36,377 nt of DNA from Flavipsychrobacter sp. Its GTDB lineage: Bacteria > Bacteroidota > Bacteroidia > Chitinophagales > Chitinophagaceae. Below the pieces are notes generated by a model, which saw only the letters and a list, made by a program, of their open reading frames with translations, made no database searches and was not told the DNA's origin. Within the stretch, counting starts at the first letter, position 1. Each line of letters starts with the position of its first letter. A program made the position numbers and the translations under genes. Of this stretch, positions 3 through 7,883 are shown in pieces. Location: NCBI GenBank assembly GCA_025963465.1, contig JAOQAP010000087.1:1-36377 (forward strand), written 5' to 3'.

Positions 3-188
3 GGCGAGACAATAGGCTTATGCTTAATGGCTTTCCTGGAACCGTTCATCTATCATCCGTTGATCGTGTTCTTTGCCCTTAAAGGCTATTTTAATTTCTT
101 AGTAGGACGTAAGCACGTGTGGGGGAACATGCAGAGGCAGGGCCTGGGAATGCAAAAGAAAAAAATAACACCCGTTAAAGCTGGCTAA
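3..188 (+). CDS. Glycosyltransferase family 2, C-terminal fragment
   Basis: This is the last 61 codons of a gene that enters from the left edge, open from base 3 to the TAA at 186-188. The translation begins GETIGLCLMAFLEPFIYHP, continues through a hydrophobic stretch (LIVFFALKGYFNFLVG), and ends in a basic tail containing KHVWGNMQRQGL. A terminal membrane helix followed by a W-G-x-M-x-R-x-G tail is typical of processive membrane glycosyltransferases of the BcsA/PgaC type, where the tail lies in the cytoplasm. The catalytic domain is outside the window, so the sugar cannot be deduced. The next gene, a YaiO-type outer-membrane protein, starts 23 bases downstream on the same strand, which suggests a shared operon for making and exporting a polysaccharide. 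The family call rests only on the tail and on this context. Confidence 0.62.
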   Translation, partial: GETIGLCLMAFLEPFIYHPLIVFFALKGYFNFLVGRKHVWGNMQRQGLGMQKKKITPVKAG

Positions 189-211
189 CTTAACCATTAA
201 ATACAACTAAA

Positions 212-3103
212 ATGAAACCAATCACAAAAACGGTACTCCTGGTACTGCTTGTCTTTTTGTGTGTCCGATCGAATGCACAATGGCTAAAGAAGTCGGAGTC
301 GTCAGATGATCTGTATAAGGAAGCGAAGAAGGAGATAGAGCTGAAGCACTATCAGAAGGCAATTAATCTCACTAATAAGGCAATAGATATATCTCCGCGT
401 AACCTGGACCTTTACCTTTTATCAGGTAAGGCATATGGGCTCGCAGGTAAGGTAGACAGCGCACGTATACAGCTGAACTACGTTATCTCTAAAAACCCTA
501 AGTACAAGGATGCCTACATATACCTCATCAATATAGAAGTGGTAGCATGTAACTATGCACAGGCTTTGGAATATGCTGATATGGGCTTACGCCAATATCC
601 TGGTGACAGGGACATCCTGTTGAAAAAACTGGATATATACAATAAAGAAGGTGACTGGATAGAAGGTAACAGGTTAGCAGAGTACTTATTCGATCGCTAT
701 TCTACAGATGCATACATACGCAGCGTATATCTTGATTACAAACTTACACTTGCCCGCCAGTATTCTCATCGTGGTTATATAGAAATATCAAAGCACGCCT
801 ATGAGTCTGTGCTCGAACAGGACCCGTTGAACAAAGAAGCATTACAAGCTGTTTTCGCGTTGGACGTAAGGTCAGGTAACTATGAAAGCTCATTATCTTA
901 TACCAATCGTGCGTTACAGGCCACTCCAAACTCTTACGAGTTCCTGCTGAAGAAGATAAGCATACTGGATGCAATGGCACGTTATGTAGAAGCGATTGAA
1001 GTTTGCCAGAAACTGCTGAAGCTATATCCTTCTAATACAGAAGTACAGAAACTGAACATTTACCTGCGTATGGAAGCGGGCAGGTACTATATGAATACCG
1101 ATCCTTACCTGCAGTTCCAGGCGGTGCTTGAAAAAGAACCGGGCAATCGTGACGCATTGAATTATGTCATCAACATTGCTACAAGCCGTGGCCTTTTGCC
1201 GGATGCGTTACATTGGGTTAATGTTGGTCTGAAGCGTTCTCCACGTGACAGGGACCTGTTGATGAAGAAAATGGGCATACTGGAAGGCATGAAAAATTAT
1301 GCACCTGCTGCAGCTATTGCAGAAGGTATCTATAAATCGAGTCCTACCAAAGCAAATAAAGCAACATTCCTGGAATTAAAAACACTGAGCGCAAAACAGT
1401 ACCTGAATGACCAGGAATTTGACAGCTCTATACTTGCACTGAAGAGTGTATTATCGTATGATCACTCAAACCTGCAGGCAATAAACTACCTGATCAGCAC
1501 GTATACGCAGCAGAAGAGGTATGACGAAGCTTTGAATACTATTGAAGAAGCCCTGACCTACTATCCCGGCGATGAGCGCCTGTTGTTCAGGAAAGCTGCA
1601 ACGCTGGAAGCTTATGGAAAATTTGCAGAAGCAGCACTTGTATCTAAAGGCCTGATGCAGAGATACCCGGGACGTAACCAATACCTGGTAAGCTTTGTAG
1701 AGCAATCATTGCAGGCAGGTAAGCAGTCTATGCAGTACGATGACTATTATGGTACTGTAGCTATATTGCGTGAAGTGCTGGAGCAGCAGCCAAAGAATAT
1801 GGATGCCCTTAACTACATGGTGAACATAGAAAGTGCGAACAAACAATATGATTCTGCACTGTATTATGCGAACCAAGCGCTTGAGTATTATCCGGAAGAT
1901 AAGGAAATGAAACTGAAAAAAGCTTCAATACTTGCTGAGGCCGGCCGTTACAAAGAGGCATATGCTGTTTCAGGAGAATTGTATACCAGCTATCCATACA
2001 ATTCACGTTTCCGCAATGCTTATGTAGAGCATCTGTTGGGTTCAGGAAAACTATACCTCGCTGATGGCAACACAGACGATGCACTTATAGAATACAAAAA
2101 AGCATTGGCTGTAGCACCTAATGACACATTGCCATTGTACTACACAATTGCTCTGTTGATAGACCAGGGACAAAACGATACTGCAATGATGCTGGCAAAA
2201 AGAGGCAGAAGGCTTTATCCAAACAATCCGTTCTTCCTGTTCAAAATAGCGAACATCTATGAAAACGAACAAAAGTGGACGCCTGCATTCAATGCTGCAG
2301 ATACGCTGTCAAAAGCTAATCCGCTGAATGCTACTTATCTTGATTATGCAGAATACCTGGACAGCCGCCGTTGCAAGAACGAAGTTGGCTTCTTCTACCT
2401 GCGTACCAAGCTTACAGATTCTATTCGTACCGTTATCAACAACCTGGGTACTGTACAGTACACACGCAGGGGCAGGATAGGACAGATCACTGCTCGTGTG
2501 AACTATGCAGGAAGGTTTGCTGCTACTGGATTCCAGTATGAGATGGAAGCGTTCCTGAACCTTACTAAGAAATGGCATTTATTCGGTGTAGCCGCTTACT
2601 CACCTGATGGCCCGATATTCCCAACTTTCCGTACAGGTCTTTCATTATCACACACCTTCAGGAAAGGATGGGAAGCTGAGATCGGTGGACGTTACCTGAA
2701 ACATGACAGCGGAACTATCTATTCCGGTCTTGCTTCTATTGGCAGGGATTACAGAGATTACTACTGGAATCTGCGTGGTTACCTGATCGATTTCGTTCGT
2801 CCGAATAATACTTCAAGCATCTATTATTCTGCGATCCTGAGCTCAAGGTATTACATACTGAACCGTTCGGCTTATTTCTCAAATATCATAGGTTATGGTA
2901 CAGCACCGGATGATCTTAGCCGTAACTATCAGCTGACACAGATCGTGCAGTACAATACTATCAGCTTTGGTGGAGGATTTTCTAAATCCATACATTACAA
3001 GACCACTGTTGGTGTATTTGGTACATGGTACAATCAAAAGCTGGGTGTAGGTTACTATACCAACCAGTATGATATTTACCTGACGCTGCTGCGCAGGTTC
3101 TAA
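212..3103 (+). CDS. TPR-repeat protein with C-terminal YaiO-type outer-membrane beta-barrel
   Basis: The 963-residue product has a signal peptide (residues 1-23, ending NAQ), a long TPR region (about 30-710) and a C-terminal beta-barrel (about 730-963) that ends in an aromatic residue (RRF), as outer-membrane proteins do. The barrel region, with SPDGPIFPTFRTGLSLSH and GWEAEIGGRYLKHD, matches the YaiO family (TIGR04390). The TPR part is built from about six copies of a roughly 108-residue super-repeat; the motif [YP]x[DN]xxLLxKK recurs near residues 131, 240, 345, 454, 562 and 671. By analogy with PgaA, the TPRs could guide a polymer in the periplasm and the barrel could let it out. It lies between a family 2 glycosyltransferase and a DUF4838 lipoprotein with very small gaps, so co-transcription is likely. 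The polymer is unknown. The start is preceded by an A-rich leader, as is usual in this phylum. Confidence 0.85.
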   Translation: MKPITKTVLLVLLVFLCVRSNAQWLKKSESSDDLYKEAKKEIELKHYQKAINLTNKAIDISPRNLDLYLLSGKAYGLAGKVDSARIQLNYVISKNPKYKDAYIYLINIEVVACNYAQALEYADMGLRQYPGDRDILLKKLDIYNKEGDWIEGNRLAEYLFDRYSTDAYIRSVYLDYKLTLARQYSHRGYIEISKHAYESVLEQDPLNKEALQAVFALDVRSGNYESSLSYTNRALQATPNSYEFLLKKISILDAMARYVEAIEVCQKLLKLYPSNTEVQKLNIYLRMEAGRYYMNTDPYLQFQAVLEKEPGNRDALNYVINIATSRGLLPDALHWVNVGLKRSPRDRDLLMKKMGILEGMKNYAPAAAIAEGIYKSSPTKANKATFLELKTLSAKQYLNDQEFDSSILALKSVLSYDHSNLQAINYLISTYTQQKRYDEALNTIEEALTYYPGDERLLFRKAATLEAYGKFAEAALVSKGLMQRYPGRNQYLVSFVEQSLQAGKQSMQYDDYYGTVAILREVLEQQPKNMDALNYMVNIESANKQYDSALYYANQALEYYPEDKEMKLKKASILAEAGRYKEAYAVSGELYTSYPYNSRFRNAYVEHLLGSGKLYLADGNTDDALIEYKKALAVAPNDTLPLYYTIALLIDQGQNDTAMMLAKRGRRLYPNNPFFLFKIANIYENEQKWTPAFNAADTLSKANPLNATYLDYAEYLDSRRCKNEVGFFYLRTKLTDSIRTVINNLGTVQYTRRGRIGQITARVNYAGRFAATGFQYEMEAFLNLTKKWHLFGVAAYSPDGPIFPTFRTGLSLSHTFRKGWEAEIGGRYLKHDSGTIYSGLASIGRDYRDYYWNLRGYLIDFVRPNNTSSIYYSAILSSRYYILNRSAYFSNIIGYGTAPDDLSRNYQLTQIVQYNTISFGGGFSKSIHYKTTVGVFGTWYNQKLGVGYYTNQYDIYLTLLRRF

Positions 3104-3105
3104 TA

Positions 3106-5373
3106 ATGAACGGCATGTGTAGGAGGTCGCTTTACGCCTTTTTGTTAGGCCTTGTTATTGTCAGCGCCTGTACTGGCACTGCACAGGAAATTACACTTGC
3201 AAACAATAATTCTTCTGATTACAAAATAGTTGTACCCGCTGCTCCGACAAAATTGGAGCAGCGGTCTGCATCTATACTCCAGTCATACATTCAGCGTATC
3301 TCCGGTGCAGAGCTTCCTATAGTAAAAGATGGTGGCAAAGACAAAATGCCCGGCATATACATAGGGCTGACAGGCAAAGCAGAAAAAGTTCATCCGGGCA
3401 AGCTTCCCTCCGAAAGCTACTTTATCCATACAGACGGTAATGACATAGTGATATGTGCCGGTAACGGCCGGGGTCTTGCATATGGCGTATATAGTTTCAT
3501 TGAAACTTATCTGCATTGCAGGAAGATAAGCAACGACCCTGCTATACTTCCGGAATCGCACGTAATAAAGGTACCGGGTCGTATACATAATGAGTACAAG
3601 CCACCGCTGGTATACAGGGAAGTATATTATCCTGCTTCGCATGATGCTGAATACCTGGAGTGGAACCAGCTACAGCAGCTGGACGACCTGTGGGGTGTAT
3701 GGGGGCACTCTTTCAATAAACTGCTGCCTGCCAAAACATATTTCAGCACGCATCCGGAGTATTACAGCCTTGTAAAAGGTAAGCGGCAGGCTTCTCAGCT
3801 ATGTCTGAGCAATGAAGATGTTTTTAAAATAATAGTAAACGAGCTGAAAAAAAAGATGGCAGATAATCCTGATGCTATCTATTGGTCAATAAGTCCTAAT
3901 GACGATAATGGTTATTGCCAGTGCGATAAGTGCAGTGCTGTAGACAATGAACAGGGTGGCCCTGCAGGCTCGCTGATAAAATTTGTGAATCGTGTTGCAG
4001 CCGTATTCCCTGATAAGAAAATAACAACGCTGGCATATGCCTATACGCATAAAGCGCCTCGCAGTATAAAGCCGGCTGATAATGTGTATGTCTTCCTGAG
4101 TAACATAGATGCATATAGAGATAAATCCCTGGCCGATGAAGGTTCTGCTGCTGCTTTCAGGAATGATCTGAAAGCATGGGGCGGCATCACAAAGAACCTC
4201 TTCATATGGGATTACATTACACAGTTCACCAGCTACCTTGCTCCATTCCCTAATTTCAATACCCTGCAACCCAACATGCAGTACATGAAAGAAAATGGTG
4301 TGAAGGGAATATTTGCACAAGGCAGTGGCGATACCTATGGTGAATGGGCAGAGCTGAGAAGCTATGTGGAAGCAAAGCTGATGCAGGATGATAAAGCTGA
4401 TGTACAACAGCTGATAGCCTCATTCTTAAAAGATTATTACGGCGGTGCTGCAAAATACCTGCAGCAGTATATAGACCTCGTGCAGGAAAAAATGCAGGCA
4501 TCTAAACGCAAGCTGGACATATATGGCAACCCGGTCAATGAATGGAAATCGTACTTATCTCCGGAGTCGATAGAACAATATGGCAACCTGTTTGATAAGG
4601 CAGAAGGCGCTGTAGAAGGCAATGCAACATTACAAAGCAGGGTAATGAGAGCAAGGTTGCCACTGGAGTATACAGTATTGCAGCAGGCACGTTTTTATGG
4701 CATAGAGAAGCACGGTGTGTTTGTAAAAGCAAACTCAGGTAAGTGGGAAGTGAAGCCTAAGTTTGAAAGTAAGGTAGCCTCATTTGTTGCTGATTGTAAA
4801 ACAGCTGGAGTTATTGAATTATCGGAAGCAGGGCCTGCCCGCAAGCCCGATGAATACCAGGCAGAATGGAACGCGATATTTAAAGCCGGTGTAACACCTA
4901 CTAAGGGGCTGGACGCAAAGGTGGCTTTACAATATCCTTTTGCTGAAGATTATCCTGCTAAAGGTAATCGCACACTTATAGATGGTACTCCCGGGTATAG
5001 TGATTTCAGCTACAACTGGCTATGCTTTTATGGTGTACCTATGGTAGCAACTATCGACCTTGGACAAGCGCAAAGCGTTACTAAAGTGAAGATGCATTTT
5101 CTTGATGATCCGCGGCACTGGATATTCCTGCCGTCAAAGGTTACCGTTGAAGTGTCTAAGGATGGCGCCAGCTATCACAGTATAGGTGATATACCTGCTA
5201 CTGCTAACGAAGAGCATTATGAAGTAACGGTGAAAGAGTATGTAGCACAGAAAACAACAGAGCAGGTAAGATACGTAAGGGTCACCGCCAATAATCTTGC
5301 TTCACTGCCTGAGTGGCGCTACAACGAAAAGAAGAAAGCCATGATAGCCTGCGACGAAATATATGTACAATAA
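3106..5373 (+). CDS. DUF4838 (GH163-like) surface or periplasmic lipoprotein with C-terminal discoidin-like domain
   Basis: The start lies two bases after the previous stop, so translation is probably coupled. The 755-residue product begins with a signal that ends in a lipobox (VSAC, Cys22); cleavage after TAQ is an alternative. Residues of about 30-160 look like the GH20/GH67-type N-terminal fold, and about 170-470 like DUF4838 (PF16126), with SISPND near 262 and a Cys cluster at C271, C273 and C276. Residues of about 605-755 resemble an F5/8 type C (galactose-binding-like) domain (YGVPMVATIDLG, then LPSKVTVEVSKDGASYHSIG). From memory, CAZy family GH163 (endo-beta-N-acetylglucosaminidases) was founded on DUF4838 proteins. 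Next to a glycosyltransferase and a YaiO barrel, a role in trimming or releasing a GlcNAc-containing polymer is a reasonable inference, parallel to the hydrolase domain of PgaB. It could instead be an unrelated scavenging enzyme. Confidence 0.75.
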   Translation: MNGMCRRSLYAFLLGLVIVSACTGTAQEITLANNNSSDYKIVVPAAPTKLEQRSASILQSYIQRISGAELPIVKDGGKDKMPGIYIGLTGKAEKVHPGKLPSESYFIHTDGNDIVICAGNGRGLAYGVYSFIETYLHCRKISNDPAILPESHVIKVPGRIHNEYKPPLVYREVYYPASHDAEYLEWNQLQQLDDLWGVWGHSFNKLLPAKTYFSTHPEYYSLVKGKRQASQLCLSNEDVFKIIVNELKKKMADNPDAIYWSISPNDDNGYCQCDKCSAVDNEQGGPAGSLIKFVNRVAAVFPDKKITTLAYAYTHKAPRSIKPADNVYVFLSNIDAYRDKSLADEGSAAAFRNDLKAWGGITKNLFIWDYITQFTSYLAPFPNFNTLQPNMQYMKENGVKGIFAQGSGDTYGEWAELRSYVEAKLMQDDKADVQQLIASFLKDYYGGAAKYLQQYIDLVQEKMQASKRKLDIYGNPVNEWKSYLSPESIEQYGNLFDKAEGAVEGNATLQSRVMRARLPLEYTVLQQARFYGIEKHGVFVKANSGKWEVKPKFESKVASFVADCKTAGVIELSEAGPARKPDEYQAEWNAIFKAGVTPTKGLDAKVALQYPFAEDYPAKGNRTLIDGTPGYSDFSYNWLCFYGVPMVATIDLGQAQSVTKVKMHFLDDPRHWIFLPSKVTVEVSKDGASYHSIGDIPATANEEHYEVTVKEYVAQKTTEQVRYVRVTANNLASLPEWRYNEKKKAMIACDEIYVQ

Positions 5374-5504
5374 GTTCCTAAAGAAAAATTAATATTCAGA
5401 AGGCCATTTTACGAAACGGGAAAATAGCCGGTTGATTCGGGAAAAGATGAGCATTTACAGGTATTAAGGCTTATTGCCATTCAAAGGCTGTACTTTTTTC
5501 CGCT

Positions 5505-5512
5505 TATATTTG
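5505..5512 (+). promoter_or_regulatory. Putative -7 promoter element (TATATTTG)
   Basis: This is an exact match to the Bacteroidota -7 consensus TAnnTTTG, 20 bases upstream of the ATG at 5533. No TTG lies 17-23 bases upstream, so the -33 half is missing or weak. It would separate the four-gene OB-fold/YceI operon from the polysaccharide genes to its left. Confidence 0.5.
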
Positions 5513-5532
5513 TTACGCAATTGATAGAACAC

Positions 5533-5934
5533 ATGGGTAAGAAGATATTATTGACAATTCTGGCACTGGTATTGATAGGTGTATGTACAGGTATATACAT
5601 GTGGAATAAGCCACACAAAAAAGTAGAGCAGGCTGAAGGGATAGTTATTGATGCAAGAGTATTGGCAAAAGAGTATAGTACTGATGAGAAAGCGGCAGAT
5701 ACGAAGTATCTGAATAAAGCGATAGAAGTAAAGGGTACTATAGACGAATTGGAGAAAACGCAGGATGGGGGACTTATGGTGATCCTGAAAACAGACGATG
5801 TTGCAGCCGGTGTGCAGTGTGCTATGAGGGAGAAAGGGTTGGCGCTGAAAAGAGGCCATATTGTAATAAAAGGATTCTGCTCCGGGGGATTAATGGGTAG
5901 CGTGTCACTTACCGATTGTGTTATTGTACAATAA
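5533..5934 (+). CDS. Membrane-anchored OB-fold (tRNA_anti-like) protein
   Basis: The 133-residue product starts at ATG 5533. An in-frame TTG four codons upstream is possible, but it sits only eight bases past a promoter box. Residues 1-22 form a hydrophobic anchor or uncleaved signal, so the rest should be periplasmic. The remainder (AEGIVIDARVLAKEYSTDE, then IEVKGTIDEL and GGLMVILKT) resembles the tRNA_anti-like OB-fold family (PF12869), in which a short helix precedes a five-stranded barrel. Cys-containing segments (VQCAMREKG, KGFCSGGL) are visible near the end. It heads a run of four genes separated by gaps of only 18-33 bases: cytochrome-like, YceI and DUF5777 follow. Its biochemical role is unknown; despite the family name, nothing links it to tRNA binding. 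Confidence 0.68.
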   Translation: MGKKILLTILALVLIGVCTGIYMWNKPHKKVEQAEGIVIDARVLAKEYSTDEKAADTKYLNKAIEVKGTIDELEKTQDGGLMVILKTDDVAAGVQCAMREKGLALKRGHIVIKGFCSGGLMGSVSLTDCVIVQ

Positions 5935-5967
5935 ACTGAAAATATTAAAAGACCGAAAAAAATAAAC

Positions 5968-6354
5968 ATGAAAAAATTATTGATCGTAGCGGGTGTTCTG
6001 TTGTTATTCGGCAGCTGTTATAATGACAAGTATGATAAGCTGTACCCTGCACCGGTAGTTGTGACGTGTGATACGTCGACAATTACTTTCTCGCATGATA
6101 TTATGCCGATCCTTACCACTTATTGCAATGTAGCTGGTGGTTGTCATGACGAGGCTGGTTCGAATGTTAGCGGGTTTAATTTCACAGAATACAGATTCTT
6201 TGTTCACCAGGCCACTACTGATATACTGATCAATGATATTAATGGTACGCCATCAACGGGACATAATGCGATGCCCAAAAATCTTCCTAAGATGCCGCAG
6301 TGCGATATAGACAAGATGACAAGGTGGGTGAATCAAGGCTCACAGGATAATTAA
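5968..6354 (+). CDS. Cytochrome-c-like lipoprotein with atypical CX5CH motif
   Basis: The 128-residue product has a short lipoprotein signal (lipobox FGSC, Cys17). The mature part follows the pattern of single-domain cytochromes: FSHDIMPIL just before the cysteine motif, then possible axial methionines (AMPKNLPKMP, Met102 and Met109), and a closing helix DKMTRWVNQG. The haem site itself is unusual. The residues are C53-NVAGG-C59-H60, a CX5CH spacing, where normal c-type sites are CX2CH and some extend to CX3CH or CX4CH. Haem attachment is therefore uncertain, and the protein may be a degenerate or specialised member. It is second in a four-gene run with an OB-fold protein before and YceI and DUF5777 after. 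The context suggests periplasmic electron transfer or redox-linked envelope work, which is inference. Confidence 0.7.
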   Translation: MKKLLIVAGVLLLFGSCYNDKYDKLYPAPVVVTCDTSTITFSHDIMPILTTYCNVAGGCHDEAGSNVSGFNFTEYRFFVHQATTDILINDINGTPSTGHNAMPKNLPKMPQCDIDKMTRWVNQGSQDN

Positions 6355-6372
6355 CTATTTAAAATCAACGAT

Positions 6373-6927
6373 ATGAAAAAGTTATTGCTTACAGTAAGTT
6401 GCCTGATGATGGCCACTACTGCTATGTTTGCCCAGAAATACATGACCCGGACAGGAAGGATATCTTTCAATGCTACTGCCGCAAAGTCGCCTGAAAAAAT
6501 AGAAGCTATCAATAACGAGGTTGCTAACATAGTGGATGCAAAGACAGGAGATATAGTGTTCCAGGTACTTATTAAAAGCTTCAAGTTTGAAAGAGAACTG
6601 ATGCAGGAGCACTTTAATGAGAACTATATGCAGAGCGATAAGTTCCCTAAGTCGGAATTTAAAGGTAAGATCGATAATTTGTCAGATGTGAACTTTACTA
6701 AAGATGGTACTTATAACGCAAAGGTAAGTGGAAAGCTTACTATACACGGTGTTACTAAGGATGTAAATGTGCCCGGCACCATTGCTGTGAAAGGGAATAC
6801 TGTTGCGGTAAAAGCGAAATTCTCTGTAAAGCTGAATGACTATAATATTGATATACCGGCTATGGTAGCAGACAAGGTAGGTAAGGATGCAACTATAACA
6901 TTAGAAGGCAATCTCACTCAGAAATAA
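6373..6927 (+). CDS. YceI family periplasmic lipocalin-like protein
   Basis: The 184-residue product carries a signal peptide (residues 1-20, ending MFA, then Q). The mature part fits YceI (PF04264): GRISFNATAA at the start, FQVLIKSFKFERELMQEHFN, then MQSDKFPKSEFKGKI, KVSGKLTIHGVTKDV and a closing beta-rich segment. Family members form a lipocalin-like barrel that binds long isoprenoid lipids such as polyprenyl-quinone-type molecules. The gene follows the cytochrome-like lipoprotein after 18 bases and precedes the DUF5777 barrel by 26 bases, which indicates one transcript. A lipid or quinone carrier working with a small cytochrome is a sensible reading, but the ligand cannot be told from sequence. 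Confidence 0.88.
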   Translation: MKKLLLTVSCLMMATTAMFAQKYMTRTGRISFNATAAKSPEKIEAINNEVANIVDAKTGDIVFQVLIKSFKFERELMQEHFNENYMQSDKFPKSEFKGKIDNLSDVNFTKDGTYNAKVSGKLTIHGVTKDVNVPGTIAVKGNTVAVKAKFSVKLNDYNIDIPAMVADKVGKDATITLEGNLTQK

Positions 6928-6953
6928 TTTTTACAACGTTTTATATACCATTT

Positions 6954-7883
6954 ATGCGCAAAAGTTTATTGCTGTTCACTTTATTATCAGGAATCTATAC
7001 ATCATCATTAGCACAGGCCGATAGCCTGATGAATATGCTGAATGACAACGCACCCAAAACGAAAGAGCACGTATCTGCAACCTTCAAGGCCACTCGTATC
7101 ATTAACGGCAGTAGTGTGGAGAACCTTGGTCATGGCGTGCTTGATTTCCGTATCTCTCACCGCTTTGGCCAGTTGAACCAGGGCGTTGAAAATTTCTTTG
7201 GTCTTGATAATGCGACCACAAGGCTGGGTCTTGACTATGGCATTACCAAATGGCTGATGATAGGCATAGGGCACAGTACGCTCTTTAAAGAAAACGATGG
7301 TTTTGCGAAAGTAAGGCTACTGCGCCAGGTGAAAGACGGTATGCCAATTACACTGAGCTATTCAGGCTCTGTATCTGTGCAAACTACACCGGCACCTGTT
7401 TTACTACCCGGCCAGGAATGGAAATACAGTAACCGTTTGTATTATGCTCATCAGTTGCTGATAGCCCGTAAGTTTAGCGATCGGATATCTCTGCAACTTA
7501 TGCCGGCAATAGTGCATTACAACCTCGTAGACAGCAGCAAATTCTCTAACAATACACTTGCGATAGGCGTAGGTGGTCGTGTTAAGGTGAGCCGCCGTAT
7601 GGCCATTACAGGCGAGTATTACTTCAGAGCTACCAATGCCGACATGCTTTATGCAGGGGTACCTACTTACAATGCCTTGTCTGTAGGGCTTGATATTGAG
7701 ACAGGTGGTCACGTATTCCAGCTGGTATTTTCCAATTCACAGGGCATGAGCGATCGTACCTTCATTGGTCAGACCACAGATAGCTGGGGTAAGGGTGCAC
7801 TGCATTTTGGTTTCAATATCTCAAGGGTATTCACAGTAGTAAAACCAAAAGAGTTTAAAGATAGCGACGATAAGAAGTGGTAA
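6954..7883 (+). CDS. DUF5777 family outer-membrane beta-barrel protein
   Basis: The 309-residue product has a signal peptide (about 1-20, ending SLAQ). It is then rich in alternating strands with the features of the Bacteroidota DUF5777 barrel family: KEHVSATFKATRIINGSSVE, LDFRISHRFGQLNQGVENFFGLDNA cut by turns, and GITKWLMIGIG. It closes with HFGFNISRVFTVVKP and a short charged tail. It is the last gene of the OB-fold/cytochrome/YceI/DUF5777 run and is followed by a strong hairpin at 7919-7959. DUF5777 genes are, in my recollection, often found beside YceI and cytochrome c genes in this phylum, which supports a shared function. The substrate or partner is unknown. Confidence 0.82.
   Translation: MRKSLLLFTLLSGIYTSSLAQADSLMNMLNDNAPKTKEHVSATFKATRIINGSSVENLGHGVLDFRISHRFGQLNQGVENFFGLDNATTRLGLDYGITKWLMIGIGHSTLFKENDGFAKVRLLRQVKDGMPITLSYSGSVSVQTTPAPVLLPGQEWKYSNRLYYAHQLLIARKFSDRISLQLMPAIVHYNLVDSSKFSNNTLAIGVGGRVKVSRRMAITGEYYFRATNADMLYAGVPTYNALSVGLDIETGGHVFQLVFSNSQGMSDRTFIGQTTDSWGKGALHFGFNISRVFTVVKPKEFKDSDDKKW

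Follow-up and report, generated by a model that had tools for sequence, protein, structure and literature searches.

Cyclic di-GMP (c-di-GMP) activates known exopolysaccharide synthases of glycosyltransferase family 2 (GT2), PgaCD, BcsA and Alg8/44 among them. In the PgaABCD system of E. coli the outer-membrane protein PgaA is laid out as a TPR part and a barrel, and the Bcs cellulose system of the same organism has, by annotation, a GT2, the outer-membrane channel BcsC and the endoglucanase BcsZ. A third E. coli stretch, yaiO-yaiX-yaiP-yaiS, places YaiO near the putative glucosyltransferase YaiP and the putative deacetylase YaiS. Hydrolases within synthase operons are already known (PgaB, bcsZ), the C-terminal domain of PgaB being assigned to GH153 (PMC5933820), and the barrels of known synthase-dependent translocons are reported to have 16-18 strands (PMC9601211). 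Here we analyzed a locus of Flavipsychrobacter sp. (Bacteroidota) at the start of contig JAOQAP010000087.1 (our contig C23), of which a stretch of 36,377 nucleotides, referred to as the window, was studied. It encodes the end of a membrane GT2, an outer-membrane protein of TPR and YaiO-barrel type, and a DUF4838 lipoprotein. The locus is real and conserved, and it probably forms part of a synthase-dependent exopolysaccharide operon.

The operon is like PgaABCD in that PgaC is the nearest named relative of its GT2 and a hydrolase-fold protein is encoded alongside, and its TPR-YaiO protein has the layout of PgaA; it differs in its YaiO barrel, predicted to have 14 strands, and in carrying genes for a response-regulator receiver (REC) protein and a HEAT-repeat protein. 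The likeness to Bcs lies in the GT2, BcsC and BcsZ, but the Flavipsychrobacter GT2 scored just 26 bits against BcsA and no BcsB-like gene was seen in the operon. E. coli YaiO, at 257 amino acids (aa), leaves no room for a long TPR part, and the yai stretch, in which yaiX is interrupted by IS2A in K-12, lacks REC, HEAT and DUF4838. With GH163/DUF4838 proteins the lipoprotein shares the PF16126 domain, although here it sits in an apparently biosynthetic operon. Among the matches listed, the open-access literature contained no account of a REC-HEAT-GT2-YaiO set, nor of a biosynthetic operon that includes DUF4838. The features that appear to be new are the joint occurrence with REC and HEAT, the use of DUF4838 as the hydrolase-fold part, and its exchange with an LtaS/sulfatase-fold protein (see below).

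Reconstruction of the operon

The original prediction, made from the window, called three closely packed genes, namely a GT2 tail, a TPR protein with a YaiO barrel, and a DUF4838 lipoprotein with a discoidin-like domain. All three were confirmed where they had been placed, and the intergenic gaps of 23 and 2 bases were exact. Together they make up the 3' portion of a larger operon. A HEAT profile matched a single site in the same genome, on a contig of 3366 bases (C106) which supplied the suggested upstream extension: a REC gene, a HEAT gene and a GT2 gene cut off after 448 aa (Table 1). The REC and HEAT genes had been missed because they are located off the contig from which the prediction was made. 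When aligned with a same-genus relative (locus L062), C106 broke off one residue after '...QITFKYYK', and the window began within 'GETIGLC...', therefore at most one or two codons are missing between the contigs. The two contig ends have no common 17-mer and were not joined, so the link is by homology and not by overlap. The operon order in this genome is REC, HEAT, GT2, TPR/YaiO, DUF4838, and a terminator scan of 5250-6050 found none. The GT2 tail gave no Pfam match at E 0.1 because it is so short; its identity comes from C106, where the same gene breaks off after 448 aa, and from the GT2s of relatives (about 500 aa), which end in the tail sequence with up to 83% identity. The tail was matched in 43 of 147 family genomes (E 0.001).

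Table 1. Features of the operon in Flavipsychrobacter sp. (window positions unless contig C106 is named)
Feature	Position	Strand	Basis
Membrane GT2, last 61 codons and stop	3..188	+	Open frame; relatives; contig C106
TPR-YaiO outer-membrane protein, 963 aa, signal-peptide-like start	212..3103	+	
TPR superhelix, 39 predicted helices, residues 31-720	302..2371	+	Predicted fold
YaiO beta barrel, 14 predicted strands, residues 723-962; PF19413 at residues 722-901	2375..3097	+	
DUF4838 lipoprotein, 755 aa; lipobox-like motif VSAC, Cys22 at 3169-3171	3106..5373	+	
DUF4838 domain, residues 144-457	3535..4476	+	Pfam PF16126
Discoidin / F5-8 type C carbohydrate-binding-like domain, residues 624-730	4975..5295	+	
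REC (response-regulator receiver) protein, 133 aa	C106 252-653		
HEAT-repeat protein with membrane anchor, 384 aa	C106 663-1817		
GT2, first 448 aa, runs off contig end	C106 2022-3365		

Conservation across Bacteroidota

Conservation was assessed in 80 named loci, the best 80 of 237 confirmed, some of whose contigs are identical to loci sampled earlier. Genes were called with a simple longest open reading frame script, contig ends cut some operons, and the relatives used to build the labelling profiles overlap with these 80 loci. The full set REC-HEAT-GT2-(GT2)-TPR/YaiO-DUF4838 was present on one strand in 56 of the 80, including those of Chitinophaga filiformis, C. eiseniae, Taibaiella chishuiensis, Flavipsychrobacter stenotrophus and Pedobacter polaris. 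YaiO was the gene immediately preceding DUF4838 in 74, 63 of which had no more than 30 bases between the two, and was missing there in the other six; a GT2 was found in 67 and HEAT in 62. Several of the incomplete loci were cut by contig ends, and Sinomicrobium weinanense had HEAT, GT2, YaiO and DUF4838 with no recognised REC. Twenty family loci (L062-L081) had YaiO in 19, HEAT in 18 and REC with HEAT in 17; GT2 was called in 14 of the 20, the script having mis-called it in some loci. These loci were mostly chosen for carrying the GT tail and DUF4838 on one contig, and their counts therefore describe the set and do not estimate a rate. Nine further loci chosen for an unlinked GT tail (L082-L090) had YaiO, HEAT and REC in none.

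In a phylum survey the same 392 genomes were searched with HEAT, DUF4838 and YaiO profiles, which matched in 51, 28 and 98 genomes, respectively. YaiO was present in all 51 HEAT genomes, and 49 of 57 HEAT loci lay within 10 kb of a YaiO. DUF4838 was within 10 kb of YaiO at 13 of its 29 loci. Sixteen genomes held both DUF4838 and YaiO, and in 13 of these the two were within 10 kb, as compared with about 0.5% per genome expected at random. The co-location in relatives on which the original prediction depended was thus found both in the named loci and in the survey, and a chance neighborhood was rejected on the strength of operon conservation and this 10-kb co-occurrence. As a separate observation, 53 of 102 YaiO loci in the survey had no recognised HEAT gene within 10 kb.

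The GT2 synthase

The four processive-synthase motifs were nearly invariant among GT2s longer than 450 aa (n = 114), with NDGSxD in 114, TDVDC in 105, [AG]EDM in 114 and RQRxRW in 112. The Flavipsychrobacter GT2 carries all four and, as judged by crude hydropathy, such proteins have hydrophobic stretches at both ends, which together mark a processive-type membrane GT2. By bit score PgaC (86.7) is clearly the nearest of the four E. coli GT2s compared, ahead of YaiP (38), ArnC (33) and BcsA. The best NCBIfam model was likewise PgaC_IcaA (TIGR03937), at 116.8 bits for the 448-aa part against a cut-off of 422.3, and two full-length GT2s from relatives scored 96.7 and 114.1 bits. A profile search of the PDB returned mostly GT-A core matches and a weak match to hyaluronan synthase.

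A GT2 tree was built from 64 chosen rows, a subset of the GT2s found. All 17 rows that were the first of two GT2 genes fell inside one group of 19 (support 96/90), and the second copies grouped with most single copies of the DUF4838-linked lineage, a pattern that fits one tandem GT2 duplication in that lineage. Only the second type is retained in the window and in the relative from its genus. The GT2s of DUF4838 operons occupied a single clade of 53 rows (99/95), in which L153 was the sole recognised row without DUF4838, and GT2 and DUF4838 have therefore largely travelled together. The second GT2 of pairs (e.g., L066:8577-10070 and L071:9846-11342) has a CPxCG-type insertion before the RVIATGATLR motif, which may be a metal-binding loop and whose cysteines are missing from the GT2 of L062 and from that of the present genome.

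The TPR-YaiO protein

The YaiO domain was matched by PF19413 (E 3e-31, 109.2 bits, cut-off 23.9) and by TIGR04390 (55.5 bits, cut-off 32), which places it in the YaiO barrel family. A structure model based on 38 sequences had a predicted local distance difference test score (pLDDT) of 88 and a predicted TM-score of 0.47, and its predicted fold gives the arrangement of a periplasmic TPR scaffold and an outer-membrane barrel encoded with the synthase. With the full model as Foldseek query, the 50 matches listed look like TPR-type superhelices by title. Against the PgaA porin model TIGR03939 the protein scored 53.2 bits, the cut-off being 366.65. The YaiO barrel profile built here failed to reach E. 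coli YaiO; the Pfam YaiO model matches both.

The DUF4838 lipoprotein

PF16126 matched the DUF4838 domain with 335 bits (E 5e-100, cut-off 26.6), and the equation of DUF4838 with GH163 is taken from PMC9870897, where a DUF4838 protein carries that label. The F5/8 type C match was marginally below its cut-off (28.0 vs 28.2 bits), and the discoidin-like stretch aligned with 6q63 (BT0459) at E 3e-13. The lipobox-like motif lies at residues 19-22, and a loose lipobox pattern was found in 58 of 78 relatives. A structure model from 44 sequences (pLDDT 91.9) resembled enzymes of GH20 (BT0459), GH84, GH115 and GH67 in Foldseek; the TM-scores were modest, at most 0.48 among the 50 matches listed, and it is therefore the fold class and not the function that is read from them. 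No GH163 structure was recognised among the matches listed in the structure and profile comparisons. All 44 aligned rows share D266 (3901-3903), C271/C273/C276 and D369 (4210-4212) without variation. D266 comes after strand 259-261, D369 lies within strand 365-370, and the CxCxxC motif falls between them; as a guess, D266 and D369 could be the active-site acids.

A search of family genomes with the DUF4838 protein matched 67 of 147, many through the F5/8 type C domain only. On a tree of 59 DUF4838 rows, 41 of them linked to YaiO, the linked copies clustered, with 6 label changes as compared with 15.6 after shuffling and none of 500 shuffles as low.

Expression data bearing on this gene pair come from a co-culture of Polaribacter dokdonensis with Micromonas, in which, according to PMC9870897, the GT2 MED152_03905 (WP_015480551.1) was up 8.8-fold and the DUF4838 protein MED152_03915 (WP_015480553.1) up 18.5-fold, both being named among the enriched carbohydrate-active enzymes (CAZymes) outside polysaccharide utilization loci. 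The locus tags and accessions given there allow one gene between the two, which could be TPR-YaiO; if so, the response would be one of polymer production rather than of glycan feeding. Table 3 of the same source also lists MED152_03105, a 'response regulator (GT2)', as up 6-fold.

An alternative accessory protein

In many sister operons an LtaS/sulfatase-fold membrane protein replaces, or adjoins, DUF4838. Proteins of this class transfer phosphoglycerol or phosphoethanolamine. The example in L130 matched PF00884 (E 2e-24) and reached 50 bits with the LtaS model against a cut-off of 970, and is therefore not LtaS itself. BcsG, annotated as a cellulose phosphoethanolamine transferase and encoded in the same cluster as bcsZ, is comparable and of the same fold class; the L130 protein (L130_12) gave no significant BLAST match to it. 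Within 7 kb of HEAT, a sulfatase-like gene was found in 23 of 38 rows; 10 of these genes are GT2 fusions, another 10 immediately follow the GT2, and membership is unclear for the remaining three (L127, L139 and the second HEAT of L144). Both accessories occur in L148 and L152, where DUF4838 lies beyond the 7-kb limit of the count, and positions 1-20000 of L144 hold two adjacent modules that differ in their accessory, DUF4838 in one and the sulfatase-like protein in the other. A search with one query at E 1e-8 found no sulfatase-like gene in any of the 80 named DUF4838 loci.

REC, HEAT and c-di-GMP

The REC proteins beside HEAT in the named loci (n = 56) had the phosphorylation-site pattern in 51 and the KKP pattern in 50. 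Within 7 kb of HEAT (38 rows), a small REC protein was found in 32 and a large one in 17, and all five large REC proteins scanned beside sister operons were histidine kinases with receiver domains. No GGDEF match was obtained in the Flavipsychrobacter genome (97.5% complete), in any of 30 relatives (completeness 90% or more in 23), or in 48 of the 51 HEAT genomes, own genome included; control genomes matched in 8 of 14. The three GGDEF-positive HEAT genomes are three of the four with the weakest HEAT matches. Across the phylum GGDEF was found in 157 of 296 genomes, of which just two (G180 and G306) were from the same order or class. Separately, the HEAT proteins of L130-L134, L138 and L141 are 635-931 aa in length with a long extra part; the one scanned with Pfam gave HEAT_2 as its sole domain.

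Discussion

These results point, with fair probability, to a synthase-dependent operon for exopolysaccharide synthesis and export that is switched by REC and HEAT rather than by c-di-GMP. In the mechanism we propose, the GT2 would polymerize a nucleotide sugar, with N-acetylglucosamine (GlcNAc) or another hexosamine the most likely since PgaC is its nearest named relative, and would thread the chain across the inner membrane; poly-GlcNAc is a possible product. The long periplasmic TPR superhelix would guide the chain and the YaiO barrel would pass it through the outer membrane, while the DUF4838 lipoprotein might trim, release or clear chain in the export path, a role which we liken to those possible elsewhere for the GH153 domain of PgaB or for BcsZ. 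Synthesis would be switched not by c-di-GMP but by phosphorylation of the stand-alone REC protein, a signal that the membrane-anchored HEAT protein would relay to the GT2.

Several observations weigh against this proposal. The predicted barrel of 14 strands falls short of the 16-18 of known translocons and therefore calls for caution about export; the YaiO barrel profile had no match in the PDB at E up to 10, and among the matches listed the open-access literature showed no export role for YaiO. As for DUF4838, 16 of 29 survey loci were not near YaiO, and only 11 of 57 HEAT loci had DUF4838 within 10 kb, which makes it inessential to the module; from the survey linkage HEAT-GT2-YaiO is therefore the core and DUF4838 one accessory. 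The DUF4838 protein most closely related to that of the window (L196, 74% identity) is encoded outside the operon, as is L174, and the operon link has therefore sometimes been lost. The role of REC is a guess from gene position, its third receiver pattern, VS(S/N)xG, was found in just 33 of 56, and no kinase gene is visible beside it in this genome, where C106 holds only 251 bases upstream. Finally, the absence of GGDEF follows taxonomy, and is therefore compatible with, and not proof of, a c-di-GMP-free switch.

More broadly, and as a tentative extension that we would not yet lean on, the operon may represent a widespread Bacteroidota synthase family in which control lies not with c-di-GMP but with a stand-alone REC that acts post-translationally through a membrane HEAT protein, a 14-strand TPR-YaiO protein serves as the pore, and exchangeable tailoring enzymes (a GH163-type lipoprotein or an LtaS/sulfatase-fold transferase, occasionally both) would each lead to a different polymer.

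The best surviving alternative, which we nevertheless regard as unlikely, is a true Pga-type system of Bacteroidota making poly-beta-1,6-GlcNAc, with DUF4838 doing the job of PgaB. The PgaC_IcaA model and E. coli PgaC were the best GT2 matches in their respective comparisons, the DUF4838 fold resembles the N-acetylglucosaminidase families GH20 and GH84, and a B. thetaiotaomicron GH163 enzyme is reported to cut GlcNAc-beta-1,2-Man in N-glycans (PMC10154615). However, both the PgaC and the PgaA scores are far from their cut-offs, and scans of the operon proteins and of the four genes that follow found no deacetylase domain, the rest of the genome not having been searched for one, nor for PgaD. 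The GHL13/GH153 domain of PgaB (PF14883) had no match in 30 relatives or in the 51 HEAT genomes, own genome included in both, the control matching in E. coli only. Membership in the Pga system was rejected on these unmatched cut-offs and the missing GHL13 domain. Of the original proposal of a poly-GlcNAc counterpart, what stands is an exopolysaccharide-type locus with a PgaC-nearest GT2 and a TPR-barrel protein, and what falls is membership of the Pga type; its further suggestion that an unrelated hydrolase replaces PgaB is supported in so far as a hydrolase-fold lipoprotein is present and no GHL13 match was obtained.

It is improbable that DUF4838 is a glycan-scavenging enzyme merely beside an envelope locus, the linkage being historical. 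The DUF4838 copies away from YaiO in the survey and the loci with an unlinked GT tail, none of which had YaiO, would suit such an enzyme, as would the listing in PMC9870897 of the Polaribacter gene among CAZymes, in a context of uptake; against it stand the direct succession of YaiO and DUF4838 in 74 of the best 80 of 237 relatives, the grouping of linked copies on the tree, and the co-induction of DUF4838 with the GT2 that the same source reports. Equally slim are the prospects of a GT2 that adds sugars to a lipid or protein, or whose product is a cell-bound glycan, with YaiO not an exporter: the small barrel and the LtaS/sulfatase-fold protein of sister operons, with the transfer reactions of its class, would be in keeping with it, but this reading is weakened by the RQRxRW motif in nearly all GT2s examined, by the hydrophobic stretches suggested at both protein ends, by an ArnC match far weaker than that to PgaC, and by the position of E. 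coli bcsG within a synthase operon.

If the exopolysaccharide reading is correct, a family annotated as glycan-degrading, DUF4838/GH163, is suggested to have a biosynthetic branch, and transcriptomes in which it is induced, such as that of the Polaribacter and Micromonas co-culture of PMC9870897, would then have to be interpreted differently. Since the operon is conserved in mostly GGDEF-free organisms and REC and HEAT directly precede the synthase, polymer control without c-di-GMP could be tested in cultivated Chitinophaga.

Neighboring genes

Downstream in the window, a cassette at 5968-7883 encodes a small protein that begins like a lipoprotein and has a CxxxxCH motif, together with a YceI protein and a DUF5777 barrel. 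The same cassette was found in L062 and L088, in the latter near an unlinked DUF4838 gene.

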